Position numbers and translations under genes: made by a program. 5,769 nucleotides of DNA from positions 1 to 5,769 of the forward strand of contig CAJPML010000083.1 in assembly GCA_905371725.1 (NCBI GenBank). Reading direction: 5' to 3'. This document shows, piece after piece, positions 32-5,769 of this stretch. The stretch's first letter is position 1, and the number at the start of each line of letters is the position of its first letter. The notes below the pieces were generated by a model. The model ran no database searches. It had not been told where the DNA came from and saw only the letters and a list, made by a program, of their open reading frames with translations. This DNA is from Leptotrichia sp. oral taxon 215 (GTDB lineage Bacteria; Fusobacteriota; Fusobacteriia; Fusobacteriales; Leptotrichiaceae).

Positions 32-60
32 TTTACATTAATATTTATTTTTGATACAAT
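32..60 (+). promoter_or_regulatory. Probable sigma-70-type promoter of the ilv leader and operon
   Basis: A -35 hexamer TTTACA (32-37, 5 of 6 to consensus) is separated by exactly 17 nt from a -10 hexamer TACAAT (55-60, 5 of 6). The -10 is preceded by TG at 52-53, giving the extended form TGATACAAT. The DNA upstream (1-31) is almost pure A/T and could help as an UP-like element. Transcription would start near 67, leaving about 40 nt of 5' leader with a strong ribosome binding site before the small ORF at 106. This is the best promoter in the window. In AT-rich DNA single hexamers are cheap, but the spacing plus the extended -10 makes this combination credible. Confidence 0.7.
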
Positions 61-91
61 AACCTAGTAAATAATTAAAAAATTTATGAAA

Positions 92-202
92 TTAAGGAGA
101 AGAAAATGTCATTAACATTAATTTTAGTCATATTATTACTCATAATTATTATTCAAATTCTAGGACTCATAGTCGTGAAAAAGTTACAATTTTCAGCCTT
201 AA
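92..202 (+). promoter_or_regulatory. Possible alternative RNA pairing that hides the leader-peptide ribosome binding site
   Basis: TTAAGG (92-97), which includes the start of the Shine-Dalgarno, is complementary to CCTTAA (197-202). After a small internal loop, GAAAA (102-106) is complementary to TTTTC (190-194). This 11-bp interrupted pairing would use bases 197-202 and so prevent them from forming the antiterminator. It is the position expected of a '1:2' structure in classical attenuators, where lack of leader translation favours termination. The helix is AU-rich with an internal loop, so it is weak and may be coincidence. Confidence 0.3.
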
Positions 203-261
203 AAGTTTCCAGGAATGATTTTGAAATGGAATCGGTAATTATGAGAAAAGACTATTATTAA
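106..261 (+). CDS. 51-aa Leu/Ile/Val-rich ORF, candidate ilv leader peptide (or small membrane protein)
   Basis: This ORF starts at ATG 106, with a near-perfect Shine-Dalgarno AAGGAGA (94-100) 5 nt upstream, and ends at TAA 259-261. Residues 3-24 are almost all branched-chain: 8 Leu, 8 Ile and 3 Val among the first 24 residues, including the run LILVILLLIIII. Several control codons (CTC twice, CTA, GTC twice) look uncommon in the downstream ilv genes by eye. Residues 25-51 are ordinary, charged and end in KDYY. Lying between the promoter and a terminator just upstream of ilvD, it is placed like an attenuator leader peptide whose translation reports charging of Leu/Ile/Val tRNAs. It is longer than classical leader peptides such as the 32-aa E. 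coli ilvGMEDA leader. The same stretch also reads as one transmembrane helix followed by KK, so a small single-pass membrane protein is the main alternative. I recognise no homologue. That it is translated is well supported; its function is inferred. Confidence 0.7.
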   Translation: MSLTLILVILLLIIIIQILGLIVVKKLQFSALKVSRNDFEMESVIMRKDYY

Positions 262-357
262 AAATGTTAATAATATACTCATAGTAGAAAATCATAAATT
301 GCAATTATTCCAAAAAATCTTAGGAAATATAAAATCTTATTATAGAATTTTTAAGGC
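196..357 (+). promoter_or_regulatory. Candidate antiterminator: long-range pairing of 196-208 with 345-357
   Basis: GCCTTAAAAGTTT (196-208, codons 31-35 of the small ORF) can pair with GAATTTTTAAGGC (345-357) over 13 consecutive base pairs: 11 Watson-Crick and 2 G-U. Bases 353-357 are also the 5' arm of the terminator stem, so the two structures exclude each other. Inside the loop, GGAATGATT (212-220) pairs with AATTATTCC (303-311) with one G-U. TATTATTA (253-260) also pairs with TAATAATA (268-275) around the leader stop codon, giving a nested long structure. A ribosome stalled at the last branched-chain codon (175-177) should leave 196 onward exposed. The pairing is seen in the sequence; its regulatory role is inferred. 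Confidence 0.5.
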
Positions 358-384
358 GATTTGAAGAGATCGCCTTTTATTTTT
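353..384 (+). terminator. Intrinsic terminator upstream of ilvD (attenuator terminator)
   Basis: AAGGCGAT (353-360) and ATCGCCTT (369-376) form a perfect 8-bp stem with a GGCG/CGCC core and an 8-nt loop (TTGAAGAG). The T-rich tract TTTTATTTTT overlaps its base (375-384). It acts on + strand transcripts; the opposite side has only a poor T tract. It lies 92 nt after the stop of the small ORF and ends 56 nt before the ilvD start. It would therefore either stop read-through from the leader into ilvD (attenuation) or simply end an independent small-ORF transcript. Confidence 0.8.
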
Positions 385-394
385 AGAGGGTATT

Positions 395-424
395 TTGTTG
401 AAAAAATTAAGAATTAAATATAAT
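395..424 (+). promoter_or_regulatory. Weak candidate promoter between terminator and ilvD
   Basis: A perfect TATAAT (419-424) lies 18 nt after TTGTTG (395-400, 4 of 6 to the -35 consensus). If used, transcripts would start near 431, only about 10 nt before the ilvD ATG and after its Shine-Dalgarno, so the mRNA would be nearly leaderless. That makes it doubtful as the main ilvD promoter, but it is the only alternative to read-through from the upstream leader. TATAAT arises easily in DNA this AT-rich. Confidence 0.2.
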
Positions 425-440
425 TAGGAGAGTGAAATCG

Positions 441-2105
441 ATGTCAAGAAGTAACAATTTAACAAAAGGTGCGGCAAGAGCTCCGCATAGGTCACTGCTA
501 AAAGGGTTGGGGTTTGTAAATGAAGAGATGGATAAACCGATAATAGGGATTGCAAATTCATTTAATGAAATAATACCTGGGCATGTTCATCTGAAAACAT
601 TAGTACAGGCTGTAAAAGACGGTATACGTAATGCCGGAGGAGTTCCTATGGAATTTAATACAATAGGAATATGTGATGGGCTGGCAATGAATCATATTGG
701 AATGAAATATTCCCTTGTAACGAGAAATATAATAGCTGATTCAATTGAAGCTACAGCCATGGCAACACCTTTTGATGCAATAGTTTTCATACCGAACTGT
801 GACAAGGTTGTACCGGGAATGCTTATAGCGGCTGCAAGGCTTAATATTCCTTCATTATTTATAAGTGGTGGAGCGATGCTGGCAGGAGTGTATAAAGGAA
901 AAAAGGTTGGACTGAGTAATGTGTTTGAAGCTGTGGGGCAATATGAAGCGGGGCTTATGACCAAGAAGGAACTGAATATGGTTGAGGATATGGCGTGTCC
1001 TACCTGTGGTTCATGTTCAGGAATGTACACTGCAAATACAATGAACTGTCTGACTGAAGCACTGGGAATGGGGCTTCCTGGAAATGGAACTGTACCTGCA
1101 GTATTTTCTGAAAGGCTGAGACTTGCTAAAAAGGCCGGTATGCAGATAATGCAAGTATTAAAACAGGATTTGAGACCAAAGGATATAATGACAAAGGAAG
1201 CATTTGAAAATGCAGTAGCTGTGGATATGGCTCTTGGAGGATCTTCAAATACGGCATTACATTTACCTGCAATAGCACATGAAGCAGGAGTAAAGCTGAC
1301 ACTTGACGATTTCAACGAGATTGCAAAAAAGACACCTCAGCTATGTAAACTGTCACCGTCAGGAGAGTACTTCATAGAAGACCTATACAGGGCAGGAGGA
1401 GTTACAGGAGTTATGAGACGGATGCTTGAAAACGGAAGACTTCATGGTGATGCCAAGACGGTAGCACTGGAAACTCAGGGGGAACTTGCAAAAGGAGCAT
1501 TTATAAATGATGATGATGTAATAAAACCGTGGGACAAACCTGCATATGAAACAGGAGGAATAGCAGTACTTAAAGGAAATCTGGCAATAGATGGAAGTGT
1601 GGTAAAGGAAGGTGCTGTTGACAGGGAAATGCTTGTTCATTCAGGGCCTGCCAAGGTATTTGACAATGAGGAAGATGCTGTTGAAGCAATAAGAGGTGGA
1701 AAAATAGTAGCCGGAGATGTTGTAGTCATAAGATATGAAGGACCTAAGGGCGGACCGGGAATGAGGGAAATGCTTGCCCCTACAGCAATGATAGCTGGAA
1801 TGGGTCTTGATAAGGATGTAGCCCTTATAACTGACGGAAGATTTTCAGGAGCAACAAGAGGGGCTTCCATAGGACATGTATCGCCTGAAGCGGCTTCAGG
1901 AGGAACAATAGGAATAATTCAGGATGGAGACATAATAGAAATAGATATACCTAACAGAAAATTAAATGTAAAACTGTCAGATGAGGAAATAGAAAAAAGA
2001 AAATCTGAAAAGGAACCATACAAAATAGAAGTTAAAGGTTATCTGAAAAAATATGCGCTGCATGTATCTTCTGCAGCTGAAGGTGCGATTGAAATACTGG
2101 ATTAA
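441..2105 (+). CDS. ilvD: Dihydroxy-acid dehydratase
   Basis: IlvD dehydrates 2,3-dihydroxy-3-methylbutanoate and its methylpentanoate homologue to the 2-oxo acids preceding valine/leucine and isoleucine. It is a cytoplasmic Fe-S enzyme. The 554-aa length is typical. Family signatures are present: CDG (C78), CDKVVPGM (C120, K122), the cysteine cluster CPTCGSC (C186, C189, C192), and near the C terminus [10 protein letters not shown] with the presumed catalytic Ser469. In [10 protein letters not shown], Gly47 stands where [2Fe-2S] family members carry an extra cysteine, as in the oxygen-labile E. coli enzyme. That suggests a [4Fe-4S], oxygen-sensitive form (inference). I chose ATG 441 because the Shine-Dalgarno AGGAG (426-430) sits 10 nt upstream and the N terminus ([20 protein letters not shown]) matches clostridial-type IlvD. 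An in-frame GTG at 432 would be only 1 nt from that site. It is the first enzyme gene after the attenuator-like leader, and ilvA follows with no terminator between. Confidence 0.96.
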
Positions 2106-2172: not shown

Positions 2173-2177
2173 AAAAA

Positions 2178-3395
2178 TTGCATAAACTTTATGATTTTAT
2201 GGAAGCAAGAGAAAGACTGAATACTGTAATTACTAAAACAAAATTAATTCACAGTTCAGTTTTTTCCAAAGAAACGGGGAATGATGTCTATATTAAACCT
2301 GAAAATTTGCAAAGAACAGGGTCATTTAAATTAAGAGGAGCTTATAACAAAATAGCAAAACTGACAGAAGAAGAAAAAAAGAAGGGGGTTATAGCTTCTT
2401 CTGCGGGAAATCATGCTCAGGGAGTGGCACTTGCCGCACAGAAACTGGGGATTAAGGCAGTTATCGTAATGCCTAAATATACACCGCTTATAAAGGTGGA
2501 AGCTACTCGCCAGTATGGTGCTGAAGTTATTCTGGCCGGAGAAGTATATGATGATGCCTATAACTATGCGAAAGAATTGCAGGAAAAAGAAGGATACGTG
2601 TTTATTCATCCCTTTAACGATGATGATGTTGTAGAAGGACAGGGAACAATTGCTCTTGAGGTGCTGGAAGAATTACCTGATACTGATATAATTCTTGTGC
2701 CGCTTGGAGGAGGAGGACTTATTTCGGGAATCGCTCTTGCGGCAAAACTGAAAAATCCTACGATAAAGATAATTGGGGTAGAACCTGAGGGTGCAGCTTC
2801 AGCAATTGCTGCTTTAAAAAATGGGGAAGTTGTGGAACTGCCTGAAGCCAATACAATAGCAGATGGTACAGCTGTCAGAAGAATCGGTGATTTGAACTTT
2901 GATTATATAAAAAAATATGTAGATGACATAATTACAATATCCGACTATGAGCTTATGGAATCTTTTCTGCTGTTAGTTGAAAAACATAAAATTGTTGCAG
3001 AAAATGCAGGTGTGCTTTCAGTTGCGGCACTTAGAAAAATAAATGAAAGAGGAAAGAAGATCGTTTCGATTCTAAGTGGCGGAAATATAGATGTGCTGAC
3101 TATTTCTTCCATGATAAATAAGGGGCTTGTTGTAAGAGGAAGAATATTCAGATTTTCGGTTGATTTGCCGGATAAGCCTGGACAGCTGGTTGCAGTGTCG
3201 CAAATTCTTTCTGAAAAGAATGCAAACGTTATAAGGCTTGATCATAACCAGTTTAAAAATCTTAACAGATTTCACGATGTGGAACTGCAGGTAACAGTTG
3301 AAACAAACGGTGAAGAGCATATTCAAAAAATAATAGAGGAATTCAGCAAGAGGGGTTATGTTATTAAAAGACTGAATTCTCAGGAAATAGAGTAA
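2178..3395 (+). CDS. ilvA: Threonine ammonia-lyase (threonine deaminase), short ACT-domain type
   Basis: This PLP enzyme converts threonine to 2-oxobutyrate and ammonia, the committed isoleucine step. From TTG 2178 it is 405 aa. Residues 1-320 are the fold-type II catalytic domain: ENLQRTGSFKLRGA carries the Schiff-base Lys51, SAGNHAQG (75-82) is the substrate loop, GGGGL (177-181) binds the PLP phosphate, and SGGNID (300-305) contacts the pyridine ring. Residues about 324-405 form one ACT domain (VDLPDKPGQL), a likely allosteric site. This matches the roughly 400-aa clostridial-type enzyme, not the 514-aa E. coli IlvA with its doubled regulatory domain. Placement between ilvD and ilvB argues for a biosynthetic role over a catabolic TdcB role. 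The start is uncertain: ATG 2160 would add 6 residues, and the open frame reaches back to 2109 with a Lys/Ile-rich, non-family sequence. The gap from ilvD is 72 nt, with no promoter or terminator seen. Confidence 0.92.
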   Translation: MHKLYDFMEARERLNTVITKTKLIHSSVFSKETGNDVYIKPENLQRTGSFKLRGAYNKIAKLTEEEKKKGVIASSAGNHAQGVALAAQKLGIKAVIVMPKYTPLIKVEATRQYGAEVILAGEVYDDAYNYAKELQEKEGYVFIHPFNDDDVVEGQGTIALEVLEELPDTDIILVPLGGGGLISGIALAAKLKNPTIKIIGVEPEGAASAIAALKNGEVVELPEANTIADGTAVRRIGDLNFDYIKKYVDDIITISDYELMESFLLLVEKHKIVAENAGVLSVAALRKINERGKKIVSILSGGNIDVLTISSMINKGLVVRGRIFRFSVDLPDKPGQLVAVSQILSEKNANVIRLDHNQFKNLNRFHDVELQVTVETNGEEHIQKIIEEFSKRGYVIKRLNSQEIE

Positions 3396-3424: not shown

Positions 3425-5143
3425 ATGAGTATTGAAATGATTAGTGGTGCCAGAATAGTACTGGAATGTCTGCACAGATTAGGTGTAAAAGATATATTTG
3501 GATATCCGGGAGGTGCAGTAATACCTATTTATGATGAAATTTATAAATTTGATAAGATTAATCATTATTTTGCAAGGCATGAGCAGGGGGCAGCTCATGA
3601 GGCTGACGGATATGCGAGGGTATCTGGAAAAGTGGGAGTCTGCCTTGCCACTTCAGGACCGGGAGCGACAAATCTTGTTACAGGAATAATGACTGCACAT
3701 ATGGATTCTGTTCCAATACTTGCCATAACAGGACAGGTAAGCAGTTCGTTATTGGGAAAAGATGCATTTCAGGAAAGTGACATAGTGGGAATAACACTAC
3801 CTATTACAAAAATGAATTATCTTGTACAGAATATAGAAGACTTGCCAAGAATTTTGAAGGAAGCCTACTATATATCTTCAACAGGTAGGCCAGGCCCTGT
3901 TCTTGTTGATATTCCAAGAGATATTCAGTTACAGAAAATAACATATCAGGAATTTGAAAAATTATACGAAAAAGAATTTAAACTTGAAGGATATGATCCT
4001 ACATATAAAGGACATCAGGGGCAGATAAAAAGAGCATTAAAACTGATAAAAGAAGCAAAGAAACCTTTAATTATAGCAGGAGCGGGAATTTTGAAATCAA
4101 AGGCTTCAGAATATCTGAGAGAATTTGCTGAAAAAACTCACACTCCTGTAACAATGACATTGCTTGGACTTGGAGCATTTCCAGGAAATCATGAACTGTC
4201 ATTGGGAATGCTCGGAATGCATGGAACGGTTTATGCAAATTATGCAACAGATGAAGCTGATCTTATAATTGCAGCCGGAATAAGATTTGATGACAGGATT
4301 ACAGGAAATCCTGATAAATTCTGTCCAAAAGCAAAAATAATACATATTGACATTGATCCTGCTGAAATAGAAAAAAACAAAAAGGTAGATGTTCCAATAG
4401 TAGGAGATCTGAAAAATGTTCTGGTAGGACTGAATAAGGAACTGACACAGTTAAAACATGAAGAATGGAATGAAAAAGTTAAAGGATGGAAAAAGGAATA
4501 TCCTCTCGTTTATAGAAAAGTATCTGATGACAAGCTTATTCCTCAGGAAGTGCTTTCAGAACTGAATAGTATACTTAAAGGAAACGGGATAGTTGTAACA
4601 GATGTAGGGCAGCATCAGATGTGGACAGCACAGTTCATGACTTATACAAATCCTGATTCGATTGTAACATCAGGAGGAGCAGGAACTATGGGATTTGGAC
4701 TTCCTGCCGCAATAGGGGCTCAGGTGGCAAAGCCTGATACAAAAGTGGTACTTGTAGTTGGTGACGGAGGATTCCAGATGACATTCCAGGAACTTATGAT
4801 GATAAAACAGTATAATCTTCCTGTAAAAGTACTGATTATAAATAATTCATTCCTTGGAATGGTAAGACAGTGGCAGGAAATATTTAATGACAGAAGATAC
4901 TCATTTGTTAATCTTGACTACAATCCTGATTTTATAAAAATTGGGGAAGCATATGGAATTAAATCGATAACATTGAAAACAAAGGAAGACTTGAAAAATA
5001 ACCTTAAAGAGCTTATAGAAAGTGATGAAGGAGTATTGATAAACTGTGTAGTTGAAAAGGAAGAAAATGTGTATCCGATGATACCGGCAGGAACAAGTGT
5101 AGCTCAGATGGTAGGTAAGAGAGGGGTGCTTGAAAATGAATAG
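3425..5143 (+). CDS. ilvB: Acetohydroxyacid synthase (acetolactate synthase), large catalytic subunit
   Basis: This ThDP- and FAD-dependent enzyme condenses pyruvate with pyruvate (acetolactate, toward Val/Leu) or with 2-oxobutyrate (acetohydroxybutyrate, toward Ile). At 572 aa it shows the three-domain plan: an N-terminal PYR domain (about 1-170) with catalytic Glu53 in RHEQGAAHEADGYAR, a central FAD-binding domain (about 195-335, with GIRFDDRITG), and a C-terminal PP domain with the ThDP/Mg motif from GDGG (446-449) to NN (473-474). Next comes GMVRQWQ (478-484), whose tryptophan is characteristic of biosynthetic AHAS and associated with preference for 2-oxobutyrate. This and the adjacent ilvN separate it from catabolic acetolactate synthases. 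ATG 3425 has a strong site, GAGGTG (3411-3416), 8 nt upstream. The gene starts 29 nt after ilvA and its end overlaps ilvN by 8 bp. Confidence 0.97.
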   Translation: MSIEMISGARIVLECLHRLGVKDIFGYPGGAVIPIYDEIYKFDKINHYFARHEQGAAHEADGYARVSGKVGVCLATSGPGATNLVTGIMTAHMDSVPILAITGQVSSSLLGKDAFQESDIVGITLPITKMNYLVQNIEDLPRILKEAYYISSTGRPGPVLVDIPRDIQLQKITYQEFEKLYEKEFKLEGYDPTYKGHQGQIKRALKLIKEAKKPLIIAGAGILKSKASEYLREFAEKTHTPVTMTLLGLGAFPGNHELSLGMLGMHGTVYANYATDEADLIIAAGIRFDDRITGNPDKFCPKAKIIHIDIDPAEIEKNKKVDVPIVGDLKNVLVGLNKELTQLKHEEWNEKVKGWKKEYPLVYRKVSDDKLIPQEVLSELNSILKGNGIVVTDVGQHQMWTAQFMTYTNPDSIVTSGGAGTMGFGLPAAIGAQVAKPDTKVVLVVGDGGFQMTFQELMMIKQYNLPVKVLIINNSFLGMVRQWQEIFNDRRYSFVNLDYNPDFIKIGEAYGIKSITLKTKEDLKNNLKELIESDEGVLINCVVEKEENVYPMIPAGTSVAQMVGKRGVLENE

Positions 5144-5624
5144 GGAACATGAAATTCTTATAATTGCAAAAAATACTAACGGAATAGTTGCCAGAATAAT
5201 GTCATTATTTAACAGAAGAGGATACTTTGTAAATAAAATGACAGCAGGAGTTACAAATAAAACTGGATATGCAAGATTGACACTTACTGTAGACGGAGAT
5301 TCAAAATCACTTGACCAGATACAGAAACAGGTGTATAAAATAGTTGATGTAGTAAAAGTAAAAGTATTTCCATCAGAAGGTGTAATAAGAAGGGAACTTA
5401 TGCTTATAAAGGTGAAATCTGACAATGAAACAAGGGCACAGATTGTTCAGATAGCTGATATCTATAGAGGAAAGGTACTTGACGTATCTCCAACTTCCCT
5501 AATAATAGAACTTACAGGAGATGTGCAGAAACTGAGGGGATTTGTGGAAATAATGAAAAATTATGGAATATTGGAAATGGCAAAAACAGGAGTTACTGCA
5601 ATGAGTAGAGGAGAAAAAATGTAA
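5136..5624 (+). CDS. ilvN: Acetohydroxyacid synthase, small regulatory subunit
   Basis: The regulatory partner of IlvB stimulates the large subunit and confers feedback inhibition, classically by valine. The 162-aa length is normal. Residues about 3-76 are the ACT domain (HEILIIAKNTNGIVARIMSLFNRRGY in pattern, ending in a V-rich strand). Residues about 85-158 are the conserved C-terminal small-subunit domain (RRELMLIKV to GVTAMSRG). Asn13 and Gly16 align with the valine-site Asn11 and Gly14 of E. coli IlvH, so valine sensitivity is plausible (inference). I chose ATG 5136, which overlaps the ilvB stop by 8 bp and has GAGGGGTG (5121-5128) 7 nt upstream; an in-frame TTG at 5130 sits too close to that site. 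The overlap implies translational coupling and balanced subunit production. By family the gene could equally be called ilvH. Confidence 0.95.
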   Translation: MNREHEILIIAKNTNGIVARIMSLFNRRGYFVNKMTAGVTNKTGYARLTLTVDGDSKSLDQIQKQVYKIVDVVKVKVFPSEGVIRRELMLIKVKSDNETRAQIVQIADIYRGKVLDVSPTSLIIELTGDVQKLRGFVEIMKNYGILEMAKTGVTAMSRGEKM

Positions 5625-5709: not shown

Positions 5710-5769
5710 ATGAAAGTAAGTCAGCATTGGGAAAAGGAAAAATATGAGAAAAATGCACGTTTTGTATCA
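5710..5769 (+). CDS. N-terminal fragment of a probable class I SAM-dependent methyltransferase (cut by window end)
   Basis: Twenty codons are visible from ATG 5710 to the window edge without a stop. A Shine-Dalgarno AAAGGA (5694-5699) lies 10 nt upstream. The pattern HWEKEKYEKNARFVS resembles the start of a widespread family of class I methyltransferases (trans-aconitate-methyltransferase-like). In these, W-x(n)-Y-x(2)-NA/H-x-FV-S precedes the glycine-rich SAM-binding motif by about 20-25 residues. The SAM motif itself would fall beyond the window, so the assignment rests on this N-terminal signature alone. The substrate cannot be named. It begins 85 nt after ilvN on the same strand, with no clear terminator between, so it may be co-transcribed, but nothing visible ties it to branched-chain amino acid synthesis. 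Confidence 0.6.
   Translation, partial: MKVSQHWEKEKYEKNARFVS

Follow-up and report, generated by a model that had tools for sequence, protein, structure and literature searches.

The window, i.e., the complete stretch of 5,769 nucleotides from Leptotrichia sp. oral taxon 215 that was analyzed here, carries the genes ilvD, ilvA, ilvB and ilvN behind a putative promoter, a leader ORF and an intrinsic terminator (Table 1). The original prediction had recognized the promoter, the well-initiated 51-codon ORF with 19 Leu/Ile/Val among its first 24 codons, the terminator and ilvD, and each of these, together with the Shine-Dalgarno (SD) sequence of the ORF, was confirmed at its position. The terminator stem (353-362/367-376) comprises 10 bp and is followed by TTATTTTT; the ATG of ilvD lies at 441. 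The start of the leader transcript near position 67 is a guess. According to window positions 5710-5769 and the leuA locus L218 (read on its minus strand; reverse-complement positions 3-1456), ilvN is followed by an ORF whose motif LDLGCGDG we take to be methyltransferase-like, then by a presumably aspartate racemase-like ORF and then by leuA.

Table 1. Features of the ilvDABN locus in the window.
Feature	Position	Strand	Details
Promoter	32..60	+	-35 TTTACA 32-37; 17-nt spacer ending TGA; TACAAT 55-60; extended -10 TGATACAAT
SD sequence AAGGAG of the leader ORF	94..99	+	sequence
Leader ORF, 51 codons, MSLTLILVILLLIIIIQILGLIVVKKLQFSALKVSRNDFEMESVIMRKDYY	106..261	+	ATG 106; stop 259-261
Control codons (codons 3-24), 19 of them Leu/Ile/Val, GTC and CTC included	112..177	+	
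Region 2 GCCTTAAAAGTTT, proposed antiterminator (5' arm), within the leader ORF	196..208	+	
Region 3, proposed antiterminator (3' arm)	345..357	+	
Hairpin of the intrinsic terminator (regions 3:4), 10 bp, -12.9 kcal/mol	353..376	+	
U tract of the terminator	377..384	+	
ilvD, dihydroxy-acid dehydratase	441..2105	+	TIGR00110, 801 bits, cut-off 618
ilvA, threonine ammonia-lyase, approximate start	2175..3395	+	TIGR01127, above cut-off
ilvB, acetolactate synthase large subunit	3425..5143	+	TIGR00118, above cut-off
ilvN, acetolactate synthase small subunit	5136..5624	+	TIGR00119, above cut-off

In the AT-rich window, promoter patterns (22 observed vs. 20.2 expected) and terminator patterns (2 observed vs. 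2.6 expected) occurred at chance level. Therefore, both elements gain weight only through their conservation. The Leu/Ile/Val run of the leader ORF is far beyond chance. When the loci collected up to that point, many of them near-copies, were all searched on both strands (1.92 million bases) for SD-preceded ATG ORFs of 15-90 amino acids with at least 10 Leu/Ile/Val in 12 residues, 89 were found, 85 of them ilvD leaders and four, in our reading, TatA-like. GTC made up 47, 47 and 56% of the Val codons in the leaders of three groups, where the counts are inflated by common ancestry, as compared to 4, 3 and 8% in ilvD, for which the baseline was taken from plus-strand loci (11 of 23, 4 of 4 and 9 of 27). 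Such overuse of a rare Val codon is what would be expected if the ribosome is to be slowed. Leu and Ile, by contrast, were encoded mostly by common codons in the leaders, with TTA accounting for 74% of Leu in those of the Leptotrichiaceae type.

Region 2 lies 18 nt downstream of the final Val codon in the Leu/Ile/Val run and can pair with region 3 over 13 bp, with a predicted energy of -15.4 kcal/mol as compared to -12.9 kcal/mol for the terminator. Since five bases of region 3 also belong to the 5' arm of the terminator, antiterminator (2:3) and terminator (3:4) are mutually exclusive. The 2:3 pairing of the window was matched by none of 60 dinucleotide shuffles.

IlvD was present in 60 of the 98 Fusobacteriota genomes and in 308 of the 380 genomes of the class to which Veillonella belongs. 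Upstream regions were examined at 60 of the 66 fusobacterial IlvD places and at 70 places from Veillonella's class, and a leader was counted where an SD-led ORF with at least 9 Leu/Ile/Val in 12 residues lay within 600 nt of ilvD. Leaders were found in 32 of the 60 Fusobacteriota regions (22 Leptotrichiaceae-type, 4 Sebaldella-type and 6 others) and in 27 of the 28 Veillonella-type regions, the 28th being cut by a contig end. An SD-like sequence precedes each leader counted. A terminator-like hairpin stood behind all 60 leaders, in L141, L142 and L153 only via a relaxed pattern; a stricter pattern missed nine (L082-L085, L103-L106 and L162). The promoter string was found 32-68 nt before the leader ATG in 21/23 Leptotrichiaceae-type leaders (window included) and 4/4 Sebaldella-type leaders, in 2/6 other fusobacterial leaders and, by the same pattern, in 0/27 Veillonella leaders.

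The remaining 28 Fusobacteriota regions were counted as leaderless. Among the loci not counted were three with short Ile-run ORFs that lacked 2:3 pairing by the shuffle test (L126, L129, L131), two with an SD-led ORF at 9/12 located 590-750 nt upstream (L128, L130), two with a 9/12 ORF lacking an SD sequence (L132, L133) and L110, with only a 16-codon ORF lacking an SD sequence (59/60 in the 2:3 shuffle test). L119, also among the leaderless regions, offered just 155 nt of upstream sequence. No SD-led 9/12 leader was present in 42 other Negativicutes regions (L169-L210, with less than 250 nt upstream in L184 and L202) or at the distant loci L026, L027 and L029-L080, several of which were short of upstream sequence.

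The 2:3 pairing was matched by at most 3 of 60 dinucleotide shuffles in 52 of the 57 leaders scored, i.e., in 20/23 of the Leptotrichiaceae type, 4/4 of the Sebaldella type, 6/6 other fusobacterial ones and 22/24 scored from Veillonella, with L152 (contig end) left unscored and L141, L142 and L153 lacking a terminator by the finder of this test. The pairing was absent in L089, where 54/60 shuffles were equally good, and weak in L092, L098, L157 and L162. In Sebaldella-type leaders it was kept at the same place with different letters. Thus, the comparison of ilvD upstream regions of relatives, which the original prediction had proposed as a check, revealed that ORF, terminator and alternative pairing are retained. 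From sequence and comparison, the region comprises a leader ORF, a terminator-type hairpin and a conserved predicted 2:3 pairing that excludes the terminator. The layout and the pairing kept in relatives argue for the attenuator originally proposed, and this reading of the ilvD leader is very likely right.

Covariation was assessed in an alignment of 28 distinct anchored rows out of 33; L085 and L093 (anchor displaced by one base), two L141-type rows and L162 (different helix) were dropped, L089 had no anchor, and Sebaldella-type and other fusobacterial leaders were not included. In total, 90.7% of the cells paired, and sliding the partner reduced this to 30-64%. Cells changed on both sides numbered 13 vs. 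5.0 in shuffled alignments, a value reached in 0/500 shuffles, and two of five covariation measures were not above shuffles (pairs changed on both sides, 3, 84/500; further pair types, 14, 234/500); since the rows are related, these fractions are not probabilities. The covariation came mainly from one column pair, C-G in the Leptotrichiaceae type and U-A in 11 Veillonella rows, besides which single compensations were seen in L102 (A-U) and L143 (C-G).

In 21 Veillonella leaders with a GTCTT core, the core was read in one frame in 10 and in another in 11. As compared to L143, L145, L159, L160 and L163-L168, the frame of region 2 was shifted by one base in L146-L150, L154-L158 and L161. This one-base difference alters the peptide tail and leaves the RNA core unchanged. 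Thus, the core is kept as RNA, not as peptide. A reading of the core in all three frames was rejected, the six third-frame leaders carrying another helix. When tested against foreign ones, a leader's own region 3 ranked first in just 7/21 leaders; this test discriminates poorly because relatives share sequence.

Runs of cognate codons were also found before other amino acid operons. A Leu run preceded leuA in 10 of 22 Fusobacteriota loci (e.g., L239, L215). The Leu-run leader ORFs of L239-L244, L215, L250, L254 and L259, such as MILTNILSINLLLLLLLLLLPLGCKQ, are followed by terminators; in the L250 type, Ser and Val are mixed into the Leu run. Another set of 19 leuA loci contained 18 without a Leu run (L216-L233, mostly Leptotrichiaceae-type and Veillonella), the exception being L215. 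ORFs at 7-8/12 upstream of leuA in L223 and L225-L226 were rejected because they lacked an SD sequence or lay inside the preceding gene. In one Leptotrichia-type genome, leuA is broken by many stops (L234; G092:C7:75192-76518), and its ilvD leader L084 looks intact.

His runs (at least 3/12) occurred before hisG operons, presumed to start with hisZ, at 13 of 30 loci and at none of the Leptotrichia ones. Upstream of the hisG operons L261, L263-L270, L272, L276 and L338, short His-run ORFs such as MLNKMIITFHHHHHS were seen with strong terminators. Trp runs (at least 3) occurred at 16/30 trpE loci and at 13/13 further Leptotrichia-type trpE-like loci (L320-L332), whose matches score below the family cut-off and one of which belongs to G088, the genome nearest the window. 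The leader lay within 460 nt of the trpE-like match in 10 of these and 1.1-1.2 kb upstream in L328, L329 and L332. Leaders resembling trpL, with W-x-WW or WWW (e.g., MIRQTWTWWKKLNTI), were seen at L320-L332, L293-L299, L303-L306, L313, L315-L317 and L319. Trp runs also arise by chance, with 49 matches at 3/12 in 1.9 million bases of ilvD loci.

Terminators followed 10/10 Leu, 12/12 His and 24/28 Trp leaders, three of the four Trp misses being due to a wrongly picked ORF. The 2:3 test (at most 3/60 shuffles) was passed by 8/10 Leu, 6/12 His and 2/28 Trp leaders; therefore, an antiterminator for trp is not established. A T-box above the Rfam cut-off lies 82 nt upstream of trpE in genome G045 (L302/L212; G045:C2:398966-400662). 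Since G045 also has an ilvD leader peptide (L122), both sensing systems are present in one genome. Thus, in parts of the phylum, codon identity follows the pathway, with Leu runs at leuA, His runs at hisG and Trp runs at trpE operons.

It is considered highly probable that positions 32-384 act as a ribosome-mediated transcription attenuator of ilvDABN, which is predicted to sense how far the tRNAs for Leu, Ile and Val are charged. If these charged tRNAs were scarce, the ribosome would stall in codons 3-24 with its footprint ending short of region 2. Region 2 would then be able to pair with region 3 during transcription of the latter, which would block the terminator and allow read-through into ilvD. 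With ample supply, the ribosome, its A site in codons 27-39 according to the model, would cover region 2 during synthesis of region 3, and transcription would terminate. Alternatively, the ribosome would be gone at ample supply and region 2 absorbed in the fold of the leader ORF on itself, with the same outcome.

A ribosome-mask model, in which the transcript was cut inside the terminator loop, was used to fold 12 leaders. In the window, the modelled probability of 2:3 pairing was 0.75-0.83 with the A site at codons 1-21, about 0.6 at codons 22-25 and 0.00 at codons 27-39. From codon 41 on, it was 0.62-0.95. With the ribosome at the stop codon, about 50 nt downstream of region 2, it was 0.83, as region 2 would then be left free. 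The corresponding value at the stop codon was at most 0.06 in L145, L109, L107 and L163; the Sebaldella-type leader L103 gave 0.97 both at the stop codon and without a ribosome. In the Leptotrichia leader L086, the antiterminator reached at most 0.62 over the control codons and was near 0 for several of them.

Without a ribosome, the modelled probability of 2:3 pairing in the window was 0.11, and in the lowest-energy structure the ORF folded back on itself into a long hairpin. The ORF fold exceeded shuffled sequences moderately in Leptotrichiaceae-type leaders, with a median z-score of -2.2 (dinucleotide shuffles) and -2.0 (synonymous shuffles), and was weak in the window (-1.0 and -0.7) and about zero in Veillonella. 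Pairing of the SD sequence with region 2, suspected from the letters as a protector, was not supported in the window (0.00), although the Veillonella leader L143 gave a high value (0.82). When the full-length leader was folded at equilibrium under ribosome masks, the terminator always formed, which was uninformative about switching. In this model, the off state must rest on timing, on following ribosomes or on the ORF fold, and this is the least certain step of the proposed mechanism.

The original prediction had considered a fusobacterial origin of the DNA as a possibility, and the IlvD tree (67 rows) places the window in a Leptotrichiaceae-type group of 19 rows (support 100/99). The IlvD proteins of the window and of G088, a genome from the phylum of Leptotrichia, are 99% identical, and named neighbours of the window are Leptotrichiaceae MAGs, a genome labelled Fusobacterium gastrosuis, Leptotrichia hongkongensis and others. 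Veillonella IlvD falls within an otherwise fusobacterial clade (36 rows; 100/99) as sister to the Leptotrichiaceae type (99/94), apart from two other Negativicutes rows in the tree. In 6/6 Veillonella loci checked, ilvA or ilvB follows ilvD. The position of Veillonella IlvD inside the fusobacterial clade and the shared leader thus suggest that ilvD moved into Veillonella together with its switch, a transfer whose direction depends on the rows sampled.

Different explanations of the leader were weighed against the same data. If the ORF encoded a functional small membrane protein, with the terminator incidental or set to a fixed read-through, its Leu/Ile/Val run could make a transmembrane helix, and the partial similarity of the tail (ALKVS-like) among Leptotrichiaceae-type leaders would be in line with this. 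However, the coding frame of the tail shifts in Veillonella around a constant RNA core, the leaders vary in length from 29 to 56 codons, and His or Trp runs appear instead in the leaders of other operons. Moreover, the window ORF matched no NCBIfam family and no Pfam family above cut-off. Such a protein is hardly credible. T-box control is frequent in low-GC bacteria, and a divergent T-box would sense uncharged tRNA directly. Matches were indeed present in 20/98 Fusobacteriota genomes at E-values up to 0.001, two of them above the cut-off, but none lay at ilvD, the nearest on the same contig as an ilvD being 178 kb away; the scan used strict filters by which weak matches may be lost, and many contigs are short. 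The original prediction had seen no T-box motif, and the model RF00230 had no match in the window, nor at 40 other ilvD/IlvD-like loci scanned, and the probability of a T-box is regarded as practically negligible.

A riboswitch would have the leader RNA bind a branched-chain amino acid or ppGpp directly, a suggestion made at low confidence for the ilvD motif of Veillonella. The conserved features are instead an SD-led Leu/Ile/Val ORF, GTC codons and the 2:3 pairing, and the cognate runs before leuA, hisG and trpE operons require no aptamer. No known aptamer family of Rfam scored above its gathering threshold in the window, where only sub-threshold chance matches occurred, and no Rfam match was found at 40 other loci. 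An argument for this explanation is that the "ilvD motif" WRC-18-2, located upstream of Veillonella ilvD, was published as a weak riboswitch candidate (PMC8632094). It shares genus, gene and a terminator between element and ilvD with the Veillonella leaders, and the section on this candidate mentions no leader peptide (PMC8632094). By locus, WRC-18-2 is the Veillonella form of the leader described here and is reread as this attenuator; direct metabolite binding is judged very unlikely.

In a broader reading, Fusobacteriota would form a separate stronghold of peptide-read attenuation, with Leu/Ile/Val codons at ilvD, Leu only at leuA, His at hisG and Trp at trpE, depending on lineage. From a Leptotrichia-like donor, ilvD would have entered Veillonella together with its leader, which in that genus was published as a riboswitch candidate. 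This combined picture is favoured with fair confidence. It would extend classical attenuation, with several pathways each served by cognate codons, to a phylum without an earlier report in the literature searched, put right how a published riboswitch candidate has been read and provide a case of a gene crossing phyla along with its translation-read switch.

The enterobacterial ilvGMEDA, ilvBN and leu attenuators likewise combine a peptide rich in Leu/Ile/Val codons with 2:3 against 3:4 pairing, as in the window. To our knowledge, their sequences are unrelated to the window leader, and the window differs from them in its stop codon about 50 nt beyond region 2. The original prediction had located the attenuator outside the well-known groups. 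This overlooks two ilvD attenuators of other bacteria, Listeria Rli60 and that of Staphylococcus aureus, as described in the available parts of the respective reports (PMC5864092, PMC5794164). In S. aureus, attenuation by a leucine-rich peptide was supported, and ilvD is preceded by a leader ORF containing Ile and Leu codons and by a terminator, without a T-box, as in the window; its peptide has 26 amino acids, and the partner of its proposed antiterminator is the poly-U tail instead of the 5' arm of the terminator (PMC5794164).

The report on the Corynebacterium ilvB-II uORF, which also covers the ilvB-OMG and Leptospira ilvB motifs, reinterprets RNA motifs of uncertain function as attenuators (PMC10272879). 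Corynebacterium ilvB-II resembles the window in its uORF rich in branched-chain amino acid (BCAA) codons, terminator and antiterminator and differs in gene, bacteria and peptide length (15-17 amino acids); "ilvD", "Veillonella" and "Fusobact-" are absent from the text of that report (PMC10272879). Attenuators of ilvB with uORFs in Corynebacterium are also described in PMC11857589. In the accessible text of a 2024 survey that included Leptotrichia buccalis, manA-II and fhsA motifs are given for Leptotrichia, a trpB motif in Firmicutes and Fusobacteria is described for which the authors do not exclude a classic attenuator, and no ilvD motif was encountered (PMC11109978). According to the portions available, a 2010 terminator survey reported a His leader peptide in bacilli with Fusobacteria unmentioned (PMC2965389), and a 2016 survey of leader genes deemed the Fusobacteria data too few (PMC4833913). 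Fusobacterial ilv attenuation had been expected to be little described, and among the matches listed, the openly licensed literature held neither a report of it nor a description of the ilvD element as a leader-peptide attenuator.

A close known counterpart is Rli60 of Listeria monocytogenes, for which ribosome-mediated attenuation of the ilvD operon was demonstrated (PMC5864092). According to the available part of that study, it shares with the window a BCAA-rich leader peptide upstream of ilvD, a terminator and an antiterminator, with support from mutations in Listeria; its peptide comprises 13 amino acids as compared to 51 codons in the window, and loss of leader translation lowers ilvD in Listeria (PMC5864092). 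Thus, the kind of switch is already known, and what is new here is the proposed antiterminator 196-208/345-357, which, being named, is open to mutation.
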